64,000 nucleotides of DNA from Betaproteobacteria bacterium (lineage in GTDB: Bacteria; Pseudomonadota; Gammaproteobacteria; Burkholderiales; SG8-41). The translations under genes were made by a program, and so were the position numbers. The number at the start of each line of letters is the position of its first letter. The first letter of the stretch is position 1. Shown in pieces: positions 17,174-27,678 of this stretch. The stretch is taken from NCBI GenBank assembly GCA_016868035.1, contig VGID01000013.1, positions 1 through 64,000 of the forward strand, written 5' to 3'. The notes beneath the pieces were generated by a model. That model was not told the origin of the DNA and made no database searches. It was given only the letters and a program-made list of their open reading frames with translations.

Positions 17174-18016
17174 ATGCCCGCAGCGATCGCTTACGCACCG
17201 CGCGGTTGCCAGCGCGCGCTCATCGCTGTCCTCGCGCTGGCGGGCGCGGTCGCGTGCCGCGCTGCACCCGCGATCGAGCTCACGCTGCGAGAAATCGCGG
17301 ACTTCCGCCCCGCCCCGCGCGCGCCGGCCGCTCTCCCGGACCAGCTGCCGCACAGCGATGTCGCGCACGGCACGCGTGACATTGCCCGGGCGTGGCTCGC
17401 GGCGCCGACCCGGCGCTACGCGCACGCCGTCCTCGGGGACGACCTCGAGGCAGGCGAGCTGCGCGTGCAGACCCGCGAGGGAGCCACGCTCACCGCGCGG
17501 CTGCCGGTCGAATGCGTATTCGAGGACCTCGTGCCCCGCCTGATGGACCTCGACGGCGACGGACGCGACGAAATCGTGGTCGTCGAGAGCTGTCAGGCAA
17601 GTGGTGCGATGATCAGCATCTGGGGGGTGGACGCGGGCCGGCTCATGCGCAAGGCGGCTGGCGGCGCGATCGGCACGCCGCACCGATGGTTGAACCCGAT
17701 CGGCTTCGGGAATTTCACGGGCGACGGCACCCTCGACATCGCGGTGGTGCAAACCCCGCATATTGGCGGGATCGTGAAGATCTACCGGCTGCGGGGCAGC
17801 GGGCTCACCCTGCTCGCCGAGCGCGGGCAGTATTCGACGCACGCACTCGGCAGCACCGAGCTTGCGCTGGGGCGAGTGTTCCGGCTCGGCGCGACCACCT
17901 CGCCGTGCTCGTGCTGCGTGGCGGTTTCGGCTGTCGGATGGCCGCGCCGCGGAAGTAACGGTGAAGTAAGCGCCCTGTCCGCGCAAGTCGCTCTGGTAGA
18001 GTTACGCGATGGATGA
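17174..18016 (+). CDS. Exported FG-GAP (VCBS) repeat protein with suspect C-terminus
   Basis: 280 residues: an N-terminal signal peptide (about 1-30, LIAVLALAGAVACRA), then beta-propeller type repeats with the calcium-binding DLDGDGRDEIVVVE (about 128-141) and GNFTGDGTLDIAVVQ (about 185). Such proteins are usually periplasmic or surface structural modules. After about 17880 the frame yields a Cys/Ser-rich tail unlike the family, whereas the two other frames encode DHLAVLVLRGG and WRFRLSDGRAAEVTV, which would fit the propeller. One or two frameshifts are therefore likely near the 3' end. Its last 8 bases overlap the first unit of a tandem repeat. Confidence 0.65.
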   Translation: MPAAIAYAPRGCQRALIAVLALAGAVACRAAPAIELTLREIADFRPAPRAPAALPDQLPHSDVAHGTRDIARAWLAAPTRRYAHAVLGDDLEAGELRVQTREGATLTARLPVECVFEDLVPRLMDLDGDGRDEIVVVESCQASGAMISIWGVDAGRLMRKAAGGAIGTPHRWLNPIGFGNFTGDGTLDIAVVQTPHIGGIVKIYRLRGSGLTLLAERGQYSTHALGSTELALGRVFRLGATTSPCSCCVAVSAVGWPRRGSNGEVSALSAQVALVELRDG

Positions 18017-18313
18017 AATGGTTCTGCGCGGCATGGCCAAATGGCCGAACGTGCCGGCGCGGCGCGGACACGTTAGCCGCAGGCCCGTTTGCGGGAAGCG
18101 CCGCGGGACCGCCGGCCCCACCGGTCTGCGCAGCCATGGATGAAATGGTTCTGCGCGGCATGGCCAAATGGCCGAACGTGCCGGCGCGGCGCGGACACGT
18201 TAGCCGCAGGCCCGTTTGCGGGAAGCGCCGCGGGACCGCCGGCCCCACCGGTCTGCGCAGCCATGGATGAAATGGTTCTGCGCGGCATGGCCAAATGGCC
18301 GAACGTGCCGGCG
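18009..18313 (+). repeat. Tandem 127-bp repeat triplicating the start of the next gene
   Basis: Two complete units (18009-18135, 18136-18262) and a partial third (18263-18313, 51 bp). Each unit is the first 17 codons of the following gene plus a 76-bp spacer containing a CCGCA...TGCGG hairpin. Unit identity is perfect by eye. Since 127 is not a multiple of three, the three ATGs lie in different frames and only the third leads into the gene. Confidence 0.95.
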
Positions 18314-22916: not shown

Positions 22917-24086
22917 TCACCGCAGGAACCAGAGGTAATAGATCGCGAACCCGAGAGCCGCAACGACCCAGTAGCCTGCGAGGGTGAGGCGCATCAGCGT
23001 CTTCCAGCCGCGCACGTGCAGCGGCTTCGGCAGCAGGCCGTTCATCTGCGCGATGAGCCACAGCCCTGCGGAAACCGTCACCGTCCCGACCGCCGCGTGC
23101 AGCCATGGCACGAGGATGTGCGGCTTGGCGAGATCGGACGCGGCCTCAAACGCCGCGTTCTCCATCCCGCGCGCCATGATCAGGACCACCAGCACCGCGT
23201 TCAGCAGCACCCAGATCGTCTGGTTGTAGCGGTGCGCGGCGATGTTGCCGCGCTTCGCGAGCCACGCGCCGAAGGTAAGCCCCGCCACGAGCAGGACCTG
23301 CAGCGCGAGGTTGAGATCGGGAATGAGCGCTCCGGAGAAGAGGAACCCCGGCGCTGACCACTTGCCGGCGGCCTCGATCGCGAGGATCGCCGCGGTCACG
23401 CCTGCGAGCAGCACCGCTCCGGCCGCAAGACTGAACCGCCTCATGCCGCCCGGTGGGATCCACACCCCCGCCTGCGGACCGCGATTCTCGTCGAATCCGA
23501 CCGCCCAGTGGGTGCCATCGCAGTAGGGCTTGTTCTTTGACGCGCCACAGCGGCATAGTGCGTAGCGCCCCGCCACCGGCGGCTGCTCGCCCGTGTTTGT
23601 GACCCCCACGTGCCCGGTGACGTAATACGGCCCGTTCTTCGAGACCGTGATCGAAGGATCGCCCGATGCTTCGGGCGGCGATTGTTTTTCGATCGAGTAG
23701 CGGAGCGCGCCCGACGGACAGCGCCTTACCAGCGCCGCCACGGCTTCGGCGTCCGCCGCGTCCGGATCGATCCACGGTTCCTTCCCCAGCCGGAACACCG
23801 CGGAGAGGTTGTCGGTGCAGACACCCGAATGCGAACAGACTGCGCGATTGTCGTGGATGGTGATGCGTCGTCCACGGAAAGCGTCAACGACGCCGGAACC
23901 CACCGCGAGGCGCGCGCCGTCGAAACCGGTCTTCTTGTGCGTTCCGTCGCAGAACGGCTTTTTCGACGAGTTGCCGCAGCGGCAAAGCGCGTACGAGCCG
24001 CCGGTCGGCAGGTCGTTCCCGAGCGCGTCGCGCAGCCGGCACGGGCCGCGCACGAGGTACGGACCGTTCTTGCGGACCTCGATCAT
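22917..24086 (-). CDS. Membrane protein with two CDGSH iron-sulfur domains, a ferredoxin-like insert and five helices
   Basis: 389 residues in this order: CDGSH domain 1 (C35, C37, C46, H50 in CRCGNSSKKPFCDGTH); a divergent mono-cluster ferredoxin-like segment of the YjdI type (C84, C90 in CSHSGVC and C123 in RRCPSGALRYS); CDGSH domain 2 (C178, C180, C189, H193); and a membrane domain with helices near 218-237, 258-276, 289-305, 325-347 and 367-386. The membrane part (NLALQVLLVAGLTFGAWLAKRG, HAAVGTVTVSAGLWL) resembles DUF420-like proteins. CDGSH proteins carry 2Fe-2S clusters with one His ligand and act in electron or cluster transfer. The fusion suggests redox exchange at the inner membrane. 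ATG at 24086 chosen; the frame extends 18 codons upstream. No close partner gene. Confidence 0.8.
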   Translation of the reverse strand: MIEVRKNGPYLVRGPCRLRDALGNDLPTGGSYALCRCGNSSKKPFCDGTHKKTGFDGARLAVGSGVVDAFRGRRITIHDNRAVCSHSGVCTDNLSAVFRLGKEPWIDPDAADAEAVAALVRRCPSGALRYSIEKQSPPEASGDPSITVSKNGPYYVTGHVGVTNTGEQPPVAGRYALCRCGASKNKPYCDGTHWAVGFDENRGPQAGVWIPPGGMRRFSLAAGAVLLAGVTAAILAIEAAGKWSAPGFLFSGALIPDLNLALQVLLVAGLTFGAWLAKRGNIAAHRYNQTIWVLLNAVLVVLIMARGMENAAFEAASDLAKPHILVPWLHAAVGTVTVSAGLWLIAQMNGLLPKPLHVRGWKTLMRLTLAGYWVVAALGFAIYYLWFLR

Positions 24087-24213
24087 GGGTAGGTCCCCCC
24101 GCGCCTGCACATTAATCGACTGCGATAGTAGCAAAGACAAGGTGGCACGCGGTCAAACGCAGCTTCGCGGGACGGCATTTCCGGGGCTCATGCCCGGCAT
24201 GGCGTGGGGCCGG

Positions 24214-25020
24214 CTAGATGATCTTTTTCCGGATGTAGGTGACGACGATCTCGGCCAGCACCACCACCGTGAAGATCGCCACCAGCATCAGCGCGACGCG
24301 CTCCCAGCGGAAGAGATTCATCGCCGTGTCGATCGCCATGCCGATGCCGCCGGCGCCGACCAGCCCGAGCACCGCGGACTCGCGCACGCTGATGTCCCAG
24401 CGGAACAGCGCGATGCCCCAGAACGCCGGCTCGACCTGCGGCCAGTAGCCCTTTACAAGGATGCTTGGCCACGGCGCACCGGCGGCCTTCAACGCCTCCA
24501 CCGGGCCCGGCCGAGCCTCCTCCAGCGCTTCACCGAAGAGCTTGCCCACGAAGCCGATCGACCGGAACGCGATCGCCATGGTGCCGGCCAGCGCCCCCGG
24601 CCCGAAGATCGCGACGAACAGCAGCGCCCACACGAGCGAATTCACCGAGCGCGACGACACCAGCATGAGCTTCGCGAGGTAGTTCACCGACGTGTAGGGG
24701 GTGATGTTGTGCGCCGCGAGGAAGCCGAGAGGGATCGCCATCACGATCGCGAGGATGGTGCCCAACGTCGCGATGTGCAGCGTCTCGATCAGCGCGTCGT
24801 GCACGCCCTTCGGGTAATACGACCACTCGATCGGCCACATCCGCTTCAACAGGTCCGCCACCTGCTCGGGCGCATCGTAGAGGAACTCGGGAATCACCTG
24901 CACGGTGCGCAGGCTCACGACGCAAGCGGCAACGATCCCGAAGTAGAGCGCGAAGCGCGCCAGACGCTCCGCCGGCGTATAGCGCCGCCACTCGCGCTCG
25001 ATGCCGCTCGCCGCGCTCAT
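24214..25020 (-). CDS. phnE: Phosphonate-type ABC transporter permease 2
   Basis: 268 residues, six or so membrane helices, with the permease EAA-like loop (ARPGPVEALKAAGAPWPSILVKGYWPQ) that docks on the ATPase and the conserved GLVGAGGIGMAID end block. Its ATG at 25020 overlaps the TGA of the upstream permease by four bases (ATGA), showing translational coupling. Last gene of the phnD-phnC-phnE1-phnE2 unit. Confidence 0.88.
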   Translation of the reverse strand: MSAASGIEREWRRYTPAERLARFALYFGIVAACVVSLRTVQVIPEFLYDAPEQVADLLKRMWPIEWSYYPKGVHDALIETLHIATLGTILAIVMAIPLGFLAAHNITPYTSVNYLAKLMLVSSRSVNSLVWALLFVAIFGPGALAGTMAIAFRSIGFVGKLFGEALEEARPGPVEALKAAGAPWPSILVKGYWPQVEPAFWGIALFRWDISVRESAVLGLVGAGGIGMAIDTAMNLFRWERVALMLVAIFTVVVLAEIVVTYIRKKII

Positions 25021-25820
25021 TGATAGAGCCTCTTGATCCGGTTCTGCAGAGCTTCGCTCACCATGATCATGGCAATGATCGCGAGCAGGATGGTGAGCAG
25101 GAAGTCGTAGTCGAACTTCTGGAACGCCGCGAACATGGTGCCGCCGATCCCGCCCGCACCGACAATGCCCACCATGGTGGAATTGCGCAGGTTGGAATCC
25201 ACCTGGTAGGTCGCGAAGCCCACGAAGCGCGTGAGCACCTGCGGCATCACGCCGTAGGCGATGACGTTCATGAACGGGGCGCCGGTGGCGCGGATCGCCT
25301 CGACCTGCTTCAACGAGATCTCCTCGATCGCATCCGCAAAGAGCTTGGCGATGAAACCGATCGAAGCGACGGTGAGCGCTAGGATGCCGGCAAGCGCCCC
25401 GAAGCCCACGGCCTTCACGAAGATGATCGCGACGATCACCTGGTGGAACGCGCGGCACAGGGCGATGAACAGCCGGGTCGGCCACGTGACCCAGGGCGGC
25501 ATCAGGTTCCTCGCGGCGAGCAGACCGACCGGTAGCGAGAGCAGAATGCCCAGGGTCGATGATAGGATGGCGATCTCGAGCGACTCGTAGAGACCGCGTA
25601 TCATGAGCGTCATCTTTTCCGCCTCGGTGTCGGGCGGAAGCATCCTGCCGATGAATTTCGCGCCGTTTTCGAGGCCAAGGACGAAGCGCTCCCAGGTGAC
25701 GTCGAGTATCGAGGCCGCGTAGAACGCGTAGGCGGCGAGCGCGATCCACGCGATGCGTGCCGGCCAGTTCGGCAGGAACGGGGGCGGACGGTTTTGCGCA
25801 GGCCCGGCAGCGCTACTCAC
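25017..25820 (-). CDS. phnE: Phosphonate-type ABC transporter permease 1
   Basis: 267 residues with inner-membrane helices starting near 22-40, the ATPase-docking loop (SLKQVEAIRATGAPFMNVIAYGVMPQ) and GIVGAGGIGGTMFAAF. Two PhnE-type permeases in tandem are common; they presumably form a heterodimeric channel. It begins four bases after the phnC stop. The N-terminal MSSAAGPAQNRPPPFLPNW is a cytoplasmic lead. Confidence 0.88.
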   Translation of the reverse strand: MSSAAGPAQNRPPPFLPNWPARIAWIALAAYAFYAASILDVTWERFVLGLENGAKFIGRMLPPDTEAEKMTLMIRGLYESLEIAILSSTLGILLSLPVGLLAARNLMPPWVTWPTRLFIALCRAFHQVIVAIIFVKAVGFGALAGILALTVASIGFIAKLFADAIEEISLKQVEAIRATGAPFMNVIAYGVMPQVLTRFVGFATYQVDSNLRNSTMVGIVGAGGIGGTMFAAFQKFDYDFLLTILLAIIAMIMVSEALQNRIKRLYQ

Positions 25821-25824
25821 GCGG

Positions 25825-26625
25825 TCACTCCAGCCAGTTCTCGCCGCCGTAGATCTGCTTCAGGTGATCGTCGGAGAGCCCCTCCGGGGACCCGTCGTAG
25901 ACGATGGAGCCGTCCGACATGCCGATGATATGGGTCGCGAAGCGCCTGGCGAGCGGCACGTTGTGGATGTTCAGGATCACCGGGATGTGCCGGCTCTCGG
26001 CGAGCGCAACCATCAGCTCCATGATCTCAACCGAGGTCTTCGGGTCGAGCGAGGAGGTCGGCTCGTCGGCGAGCAGCAGCTCCGGCTGCTGCATCACCGC
26101 GCGCGCGATGCCCACGCGCTGGCGCTGCCCTCCCGATAGCGCGTCGGCCCGCTGGTTCGCGTACTCGGTCAGCCCCACGGCGTCGAGCAGCTCGAACGCC
26201 GCCTCGATGTCCCGCTGCGGGTAGCGCCTCAGCCACGCCTTGAGCGGCGCGACGTAGCCCAGGCGCCCCGAGAGCACGTTCTCCATCACGGTGAGGCGCT
26301 CGACCAGGTTGTATTCCTGGAACACCATCCCGATGCGTCGGCGCGCCTCGCGCAGCGCCTTGCCGTGGAGCCGCGCGAGATCGAGGCCGTGAAAGAGGAT
26401 CTTCCCGGCCGTGGGCTCGACCAGGCGGTTGATGCAGCGGATGAGCGTCGACTTTCCGGTGCCCGATGGCCCGATGACCGCCGTGATGCCGCGGTTCGCG
26501 AACGTGATGCTGATGTCGCGCAATACGGGGACGCCGCGCCGGTATTCCTTGCGCAGCCCCCGGATCTCAAGCGCGGGCGCGGGCGCGGCCGCGCTCGAGT
26601 CCGCCGGCCGGGTCGTTTCAGACAT
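25825..26625 (-). CDS. phnC: Phosphonate-type ABC transporter ATPase
   Basis: 266 residues; Walker [10 protein letters not shown] at 52-60, signature [14 protein letters not shown], Walker [14 protein letters not shown] and switch His in [36 protein letters not shown] is the Q-loop region typical of PhnC. The first 18 residues are a poorly conserved lead. It sits six bases after phnD and just before the permeases. Substrate class is inferred from family: phosphonate, phosphite or phosphate esters. Confidence 0.92.
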
Positions 26626-26631
26626 CCACGG

Positions 26632-27678
26632 TTACTTCTTTGACTTCGCCTCGAGCGCCTTCTTGCGCGCGGCTTCCTCGCGCGCGGCTTCCTTCTCGTA
26701 CGCGGCGCGGTTGAACGGCGTGCCCGTGCCCTCGGCGATCTTGCGCACCACTTCCCAGTCCTTCTGGTAGGTGATCGGGAAGAAGCGATCGGCGCCGCCG
26801 AAGCTCTTCTGCATCTCCGCCGGGAACCGGAAGTCGTAGAAGCACTTGGTCAACGTCTTCACGAGATCCGGGTGCAGGTCGTGCGCGTACGCGAACGACG
26901 AGGTCGGGAACGTCGCGCTGCGATAGATGATGCGGAAATCGTCGAGCTTGATCTCGCCGCGCACGCCCATGCGGGTGAACACGTCGGAGGCGACCGGCGC
27001 GGCATCGTAATCGCCCGATTCCACGCCCTTGACCGACTGGCCGTGCCCGCCGGAGAACAGCACCTTGTAGTCCTTGTCCGGTGCGAGACCGAGCGGCGGG
27101 AACAGCACCTGTGGCGCGAGGTGCCCCGAGTTCGACGAGGGCGACGTATGCGCGACCCGCCTGCCTTTGAGATCGGCCATCTTCTGGAAGGGGCTGTCCT
27201 TCTTGACGATTGTGATCAGGTTGTAGCCCTGCCATTCCTTCTCGTTGCCCTTGACGGCGAACGGCACGGCGCCCGCGAGGTTCACCGCGAAGCCCGTGGG
27301 CCCCGTCGAGAAGCCACCCACGTGCAGGCGCCCGGCGCGCATCGCCTCGATCTCGGCGGCGTTCGACTGCACCGGGAAGTACACCACCCTCTTGGCCGTG
27401 CATTTGCCGAGGTATTCGAGGAAGGGCTTGAAGGCCGTCTCATACACGGCCGCATCCTCAACCGGCGTGTAGGTAAACACGAGCGTGCTCGGGTTCTTCC
27501 AGCGCTTCGAGTCCTTCGGCGTATCGGCGACGAGGTCCTTGTTCTCGTCGCAATAGAGCATGTCGAGCTCGCCCCGGTGTTTGCAGTCGTCCGCCTGGGC
27601 GTACGCGGGAATCGCGCCGAACGCGAGACCGAGCGCCGCGAGACCGAGCAAGGTGTGCAGAAGCTGTGCGAAATACAT
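26632..27678 (-). CDS. phnD: Phosphonate/phosphite-type periplasmic binding protein
   Basis: 348 residues: signal peptide 1-27 (cleavage near AYA-QAD), then the PhnD fold with TLVFTYTPVEDAAVYETAFKPF, HTSPSSNSGHLAPQVLF (anion-binding serines) and SGGHGQSVKGVESGDYDAA. The lysine/glutamate-rich tail (KEAAREEAARKKALEAKSKK) is unusual. GAGGGGG lies upstream of the ATG. As first gene it is followed by phnC and two phnE; no C-P lyase, phosphonatase or phosphite dehydrogenase is in the window, so the substrate's fate is unknown. Confidence 0.88.
   Translation of the reverse strand: MYFAQLLHTLLGLAALGLAFGAIPAYAQADDCKHRGELDMLYCDENKDLVADTPKDSKRWKNPSTLVFTYTPVEDAAVYETAFKPFLEYLGKCTAKRVVYFPVQSNAAEIEAMRAGRLHVGGFSTGPTGFAVNLAGAVPFAVKGNEKEWQGYNLITIVKKDSPFQKMADLKGRRVAHTSPSSNSGHLAPQVLFPPLGLAPDKDYKVLFSGGHGQSVKGVESGDYDAAPVASDVFTRMGVRGEIKLDDFRIIYRSATFPTSSFAYAHDLHPDLVKTLTKCFYDFRFPAEMQKSFGGADRFFPITYQKDWEVVRKIAEGTGTPFNRAAYEKEAAREEAARKKALEAKSKK

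Follow-up and report, generated by a model that had tools for sequence, protein, structure and literature searches.

The gene examined here lies in a window of 64,000 nucleotides, the whole stretch of DNA that was analysed, and raises two questions: whether a chain that runs from iron–sulfur domains into several membrane helices is genuine, and what such a protein would do. No job has, to our knowledge, been assigned to bacterial CDGSH/ferredoxin (CDC) proteins. The gene is a complete open reading frame of 389 codons followed by a stop, encoding 389 residues (Table 1). Its ATG lies at position 24086, with a G-rich stretch immediately 5′ of it, and an alternative in-frame TTG at 24140 would lengthen the protein by 18 residues. 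Pfam finds zf-CDGSH in two stretches (whole-protein E value 1.5e-34), Fer4_19 between them (E 9.4e-21) and a DUF420 match (E 1.2e-5) whose 26.1 bits lie below the gathering score of 30.5, as do the 28.9 bits obtained at the DNA level; AlphaFold2 places five long helices from residue 215 on. The first-pass annotation had read the order CDGSH, ferredoxin-like, CDGSH and five membrane helices, and this order is borne out by the Pfam matches and the predicted helices; the eight CDGSH ligands and three ferredoxin cysteines that it listed are all intact in one chain. The fusion protein matched no NCBIfam family. In its own genome (98.3% complete), two of the three CDGSH matches belong to the fusion gene and one to a small frame of 119 residues, and the fusion gene is the sole DUF420 match at E ≤ 0.001.

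Table 1. Positions of the fusion gene, its domains and the neighbouring transporter genes in the window.
Feature	Position	Strand	Basis
phnE-like, phnE, phnC and phnD-like phosphonate/phosphite-type ABC transporter genes, upstream of the fusion gene	24214..27678	-	
Fusion gene (CDGSH / Fer4_19 / CDGSH / five-helix)	22917..24086	-	ORF, Pfam, AlphaFold2
First CDGSH domain, residues 7-51, predicted [2Fe-2S], ligands C35 C37 C46 H50	23934..24068	-	
Fer4_19 ferredoxin-like domain, residues 71-131, C84-X2-S-X2-C90...C123-P124, predicted [3Fe-4S]	23694..23876	-	
Second CDGSH domain, residues 151-194, predicted [2Fe-2S], ligands C178 C180 C189 H193	23505..23636	-	
Five-helix membrane domain (215-239, 255-278, 282-314, 321-348, 358-388)	22923..23444	-	AlphaFold2
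DUF420-like stretch, residues 255-385, under the Pfam gathering score	22932..23324	-	
H285, invariant in 12/12 relatives, fused or stand-alone; counterpart of the first invariant His in canonical DUF420	23232..23234	-	
H330, invariant in 12/12; counterpart of the third invariant His in canonical DUF420	23097..23099	-	
H357, invariant in 12/12; shares a loop with the fourth invariant His in canonical DUF420 but is offset from it by about two residues when aligned	23016..23018	-	

An assembly or frameshift artefact is ruled out by the same frame in other assemblies and by its substitution pattern. A full-length open frame with 67–74% identity is present in five other assemblies (L005–L008 and L024, the last being the same record as the G857 contig) and in L162. 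The dN/dS values, from a simple Nei–Gojobori count, are 0.18–0.32 across 16 comparisons, eight for the CDC part and eight for the membrane part; both halves, the membrane domain no less than the CDC part, are under purifying selection. The fusion gene is thus real, conserved and under selection. It is accessory within its family, being found in nine of 74 genomes (its own, G004, G007, G011, G015, G026, G030, G839 and G857); two others (G022 and G032) carry the membrane domain as a stand-alone gene, which brings the domain to 11 genomes. Contig ends cut the fused genes of G004 and G011, leaving seven complete; a first CDGSH domain of 75% identity sits on another contig of G004, at its edge. No second match covering the ferredoxin domain was found in any of the seven fused genomes that this search listed. 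Stand-alone membrane domains are represented by loci L012, L013 and L116. In the order sample, the domain is present in three of 399 genomes (fused in its own and in G015, stand-alone in G175); with the membrane-domain profile A2, the phylum sample yielded its own genome only (1/398), 29 plasmid records matched, all with a coverage under 80%, and viral contigs gave no match. A tree built from 55 CDC regions groups the seven complete fused rows in a single clade (support 100/100) among soluble CDC proteins, showing that the fused genes have one origin.

What the iron–sulfur half may carry can be read from its ligands. Two CDGSH domains flank one ferredoxin-like domain, Fer4_19, which we take to be the present-day name of the DUF1271 domain of type 7 CISD proteins. 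This is the layout of the type 7 subtype CDC, described in 2011 as CDGSH, ferredoxin-like DUF1271 and CDGSH in 31 species (Lin 2011, PMC3174974). In our alignment A1, 33 CDC rows were counted, and a 34th row, a membrane protein, was left out. All eight CDGSH ligands, together with C84, C90, C123 and P124, are invariant in 33/33 rows, so that each CDGSH domain has the three cysteines and one histidine of the type 7 definition throughout. Position 87 of the ferredoxin domain is serine in the fusion protein; across the 33 rows, it is alanine in 25 and serine in four. The stretch C84-X2-S87-X2-C90...C123-P124 has the three cysteines, the non-cysteine second position and the Cys-Pro pair of the [3Fe-4S] ferredoxin motif CXX?XXC(X)nCP. 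Ferredoxins with this motif are described as electron carriers, in which alanine or glycine at the second cysteine position is common, and the examined members with other non-cysteine residues there, including one serine, are reported to have all been isolated as [3Fe-4S] proteins (PMC6237146). Because the ligands are conserved and the motif belongs to this class, the predicted cluster order is [2Fe-2S], [3Fe-4S], [2Fe-2S]. The Pfam label of Fer4_19, 'divergent 4Fe-4S', differs from this prediction. The earlier description of the middle cluster as YjdI-type can be kept as a family label, while the cysteine pattern predicts [3Fe-4S]. By sequence, the solved relatives of this part are the type 4 CDGSH protein 3tbm (E 9.6e-19) and, at a borderline level, the ferredoxin 8amp (E 0.0068); the CDC part of the AlphaFold2 model is confident. 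Other fusions of the module were also seen. An 861-residue frame (L046:590-3175) combines two zf-CDGSH stretches, Fer4_19, Rieske and three thiamine-diphosphate enzyme domains, and is predicted to be a four-cluster iron–sulfur module fused to a TPP enzyme. A Fer4_19/CDGSH module is joined to a ferritin-like domain at L092:975-2978 and to a glutamate-synthase domain at L043:2558-4450, both akin to kinds named in a survey of prokaryotic CDGSH/Fer4_19 proteins (PMC5859297). The class sample contains two long Fer4_19 frames, of 707 residues in G578 and 366 residues in G587.

The membrane half is modelled with moderate to weak confidence (pLDDT about 47–75), and its prediction alone from three rows was poor (pLDDT 53.5). 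The segments that flank and link the helices carry net charges that alternate (+2, −1, +2, −1, +2, +1), a pattern that fits a cytosolic N-terminus and a cytosolic CDC module. Over 12 fused or stand-alone relatives, 40 columns are invariant, three of them histidines (H285, H330 and H357). We compared this domain with canonical DUF420, represented by seven proteins picked from 14 genome matches (alignment A4), which share four invariant histidines. In a single profile–profile comparison, the two align over 139 columns with an E value of 6.6e-5 and a probability of 64%. Two histidines of the membrane domain coincide with canonical ones and the third shares a loop with another, displaced by about two residues; the equivalent of H58 of A4 is absent, so the full set of four is not present. 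The DUF420 score is under the cut-off in all five members scanned (the window protein, L005, L024, L012 and L013), the four relatives scoring 15.8–23.8 bits. Assignment as a CtaM orthologue was not accepted, since the domain scores below the gathering cut-off of 30.5 bits and lacks one of the four invariant histidines; by sequence, it is named DUF420-like, not DUF420. Structural searches with the full model against the PDB gave one Foldseek match at E ≤ 0.001, again 3tbm, and VIA-align rows led by helix bundles with Z scores up to 8.5, which that tool describes as common for helical models. Chains of the mycobacterial respiratory supercomplex (7e1v, 6adq and 9qef) appeared at Z 6.3–7.0 and were not taken as evidence. 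A PDB search by sequence with profile A2 gave nothing better than E 0.25.

The fused clade is not the only case of its kind. A motif search identified 52 type 7 frames in 51 of the best 80 loci, and four of the frames have several N-terminal membrane helices. These four-helix/CDC proteins come from Alphaproteobacteria (L050 and L057), Myxococcota by tree label (L053) and an unplaced proteobacterium (L058), and they form a separate clade (99/82) in the tree of 55 CDC regions. The profile comparison found the four-helix domain to be unrelated to the window membrane domain or to DUF420, and in the three proteins scanned it had no Pfam match better than E 0.06. CDC modules have thus been joined to polytopic membrane domains at least twice, with different domains and separate origins. 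In the family of L050, the four-helix domain is present in 16 of 149 genomes, mostly as short stand-alone frames; it is fused to CDC in L050 and to an NAD(P)H-binding oxidoreductase module in L169:805-1953 and L170:775-1950. In L050 and L057, two of the four N-fused loci, a cytochrome b561 gene lies downstream of the N-fused gene. Since one and the same four-helix domain carries either an oxidoreductase or a CDC module, we read CDC modules as feeding electrons into membrane domains. This alternative fusion is the best evidence for such a feed, and supports it in the window protein by analogy. At L053, a DUF420-like gene under the cut-off (L053:11632-12102) lies 3 kb downstream of the four-helix/CDC gene.

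Our best explanation for the fusion protein, held tentatively and at somewhat less than an even chance, is a membrane-bound electron relay. The CDC module would lie on the cytosolic side and carry two [2Fe-2S] clusters with a [3Fe-4S] cluster between them, as the conserved motifs suggest. This module would accept electrons from a soluble donor and hand them on to the five-helix DUF420-like domain; at a site there, probably near the invariant H285, H330 and H357, a membrane partner, which may be a metal ion (copper), a heme or a quinone, would be reduced. Joining the halves would ensure delivery at the membrane, as in CcoG, which does so for copper with other iron–sulfur domains. We favour the relay because of the second, independent membrane fusion and the alternative oxidoreductase fusion of that second domain; for the window's own membrane domain, the argument is one of analogy. 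Against it, the weak model of the membrane domain matched only generic helix bundles, the fused loci share no recurring neighbour, the gene is accessory (nine of 74 genomes), and around the 80 loci with kin of the iron–sulfur part no CDC gene has a canonical DUF420 gene nearby. The first-pass annotation had proposed a membrane redox relay or cluster transfer; the relay is now the better supported of the two, by analogy, and transfer finds no support beyond general NEET chemistry.

The five helices might instead be a passive anchor without a cofactor, merely holding a soluble CDC redox or iron-sensing protein near a membrane partner. Such a protein would suit the absence of a shared neighbour among the fused loci and the prevalence of CDC proteins without a membrane domain, which account for 43 of the 48 CDC frames that the motif search gave, from 51 of the best 80 loci, a sample biased to kin of the query. 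The membrane domain, however, is as constrained as the CDC part, keeps its 40 invariant columns over 12 rows and also occurs on its own. Its stand-alone occurrence and its constraint argue that it has a role of its own, and we regard a passive anchor as rather unlikely.

A more specific role would be that of a maturation factor like CcoG or CtaM, whose clusters would reduce Cu(II) or a heme-site intermediate during assembly of a heme-copper oxidase. The available accounts of DUF420/CtaM describe it as needed for aa3/caa3 oxidase activity (PMC13344008, PMC9145763, PMC4958251); it has been proposed to be a heme chaperone (PMC4958251) or, in a 2026 study, to export and perhaps reduce copper (PMC13344008). 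CcoG is reported to reduce Cu(II) through iron–sulfur clusters (PMC7558416), and TgApiCox13, a protein with two CDGSH motifs, to be a required subunit of Toxoplasma complex IV, the cytochrome oxidase (PMC10263302). The genome of the window contains four COX1-family matches and two matches to CtaA (heme A synthase), UbiA-family and Sco genes adjoin one of those matches, and it has no Cox11 match. In the same genome, one COX1-family gene (L190, C66:3460-4752) is broken by a single in-frame TAG. We compared Cox11 in 19 family genomes, the nine fused ones and ten chosen unfused ones. It is present in 16, and the three without it (G000, G007 and G030) are all fused; six of nine fused genomes have Cox11, however, and G007 and G030 are incomplete (91% and 73% complete), so that the pattern is suggestive at most. 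No oxidase gene was seen beside any fused locus, and the DUF420 scores under the cut-off and the missing canonical histidine weigh against such a maturation role, which we consider quite unlikely. A broader form of the idea is improbable, in our estimate: a transmembrane reductase of a metal (copper) or a heme site would draw its electrons from NEET-type clusters in its own chain, CDC would supply a CtaM-like domain with a part in maturing or protecting a respiratory oxidase, and the join of CDC to polytopic domains was invented at least twice. If the reductase or oxidase reading were true, it would unite CDGSH and DUF420, each tied to cytochrome oxidase in separate organisms.

The gene neighbourhood bears on a last possibility. 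The ATG of the fusion gene lies about 130 bases after the last phn gene on the same strand, and the phn genes and the fusion gene possibly form an operon, an arrangement that was not found in relatives. In G015 (L105), the fused gene begins about 20 bases after an ABC operon that includes genes for an SBP_bac_6 binding protein and a DUF3422 protein. No neighbour recurs among the fused loci, which were mostly read by eye from translated frames, and a function based on an operon was rejected: transporter genes precede the gene in these two cases, yet no neighbour is shared across fused loci. Clustering the neighbours of CDC genes gave nothing common to more than five loci, a weak result since 58 of 116 loci were dropped when a GC-based gene filter missed their CDGSH gene. 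The neighbour check advised in the first-pass annotation thus turned up phn-type genes upstream in the window, with no recurring neighbour and no readable pathway. A general link between DUF420 and CDC genes was likewise rejected for the loci sampled. Among 50 genomes with kin of the iron–sulfur part, 14 have a DUF420 match, one of which is the fusion of L024 itself; around 80 loci with such kin, a model of the seven canonical DUF420 proteins found nothing, and a window-type model found the L024 fusion, the DUF420-like gene of L053 (a model seed) and, marginally, a frame in L097 (E 0.005). In this 80-locus sample, CDC genes therefore have no canonical DUF420 gene as a neighbour. Elsewhere in the window, a 127-base tandem repeat of 2.4 perfect copies (18009-18313) overlaps the start of a reading frame and is either a very recent duplication or an assembly artefact. 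The remaining explanation, and the least probable, is the handling of iron or iron–sulfur clusters at the membrane: a membrane partner or neighbouring transporter would receive labile NEET clusters, or these clusters would sense iron or NO on its behalf. In favour, NEET proteins are described as able to transfer clusters (PMC5859297, PMC10263302), and in both the window and G015 the gene comes right after an ABC transporter operon of the binding-protein-dependent type. These two transporters are of different families, however, no ABC transporter adjoins the gene (by eye) in G026, G030, G839 and G857, the other four genomes with a useful upstream stretch, and the ferredoxin-type middle cluster would carry electrons and is not of the kind typically transferred.

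The electron relay remains our preferred reading, and it raises the question of whether, in a natural fusion of CDC with a DUF420-like domain, CDC reduces something in or through that domain. The second fusion suggests that CDC modules may be electron-delivery modules at membranes more generally. Comparison with known families places the novelty at the join. The first-pass annotation had called the fusion unusual and unfamiliar; that judgement holds for the attachment of the membrane domain, as none of the papers searched names both CDGSH and DUF420, and fails for the CDC core, which belongs to a described family (PMC3174974, PMC5859297). The core is already known, and its fusion to a multi-helix membrane domain is apparently new. 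First, the fusion protein shares with type 7 CISD subtype CDC the three-domain order and all ligands, and differs in carrying a five-helix domain in the same chain, where the published description of the subtype, in its relevant passages, mentions no multi-helix membrane domain (PMC3174974). It also shares with DUF420/CtaM (YozB) a multi-helix membrane domain with two aligned invariant histidines and a third in the same loop; its score under the cut-off, the loss of one of four histidines and the attached CDC module set it apart, and no oxidase gene was seen next to it. CcoG (RdxA/FixG), the cupric reductase, is likewise a membrane protein with several iron–sulfur clusters, described as two tetranuclear ones (PMC7558416), whereas 2Fe/3Fe/2Fe clusters are predicted here; no CcoG/FixG family is among the Pfam or NCBIfam matches of the fusion protein at E ≤ 0.01. 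The four-helix/CDC proteins (L050, L053, L057 and L058) also join CDC to a polytopic membrane domain, but theirs is of another kind, at the opposite end and of separate origin. Finally, mitoNEET, NAF-1 and TgApiCox13 likewise hold CDGSH [2Fe-2S] centres at a membrane, TgApiCox13 with two CDGSH motifs in complex IV as reported (PMC10263302). Those proteins have a single transmembrane segment and lack a ferredoxin domain, and in place of the one CDGSH domain after a single N-terminal helix that defines mitoNEET (type 1 CISD), the fusion protein has two such domains followed by five C-terminal helices.
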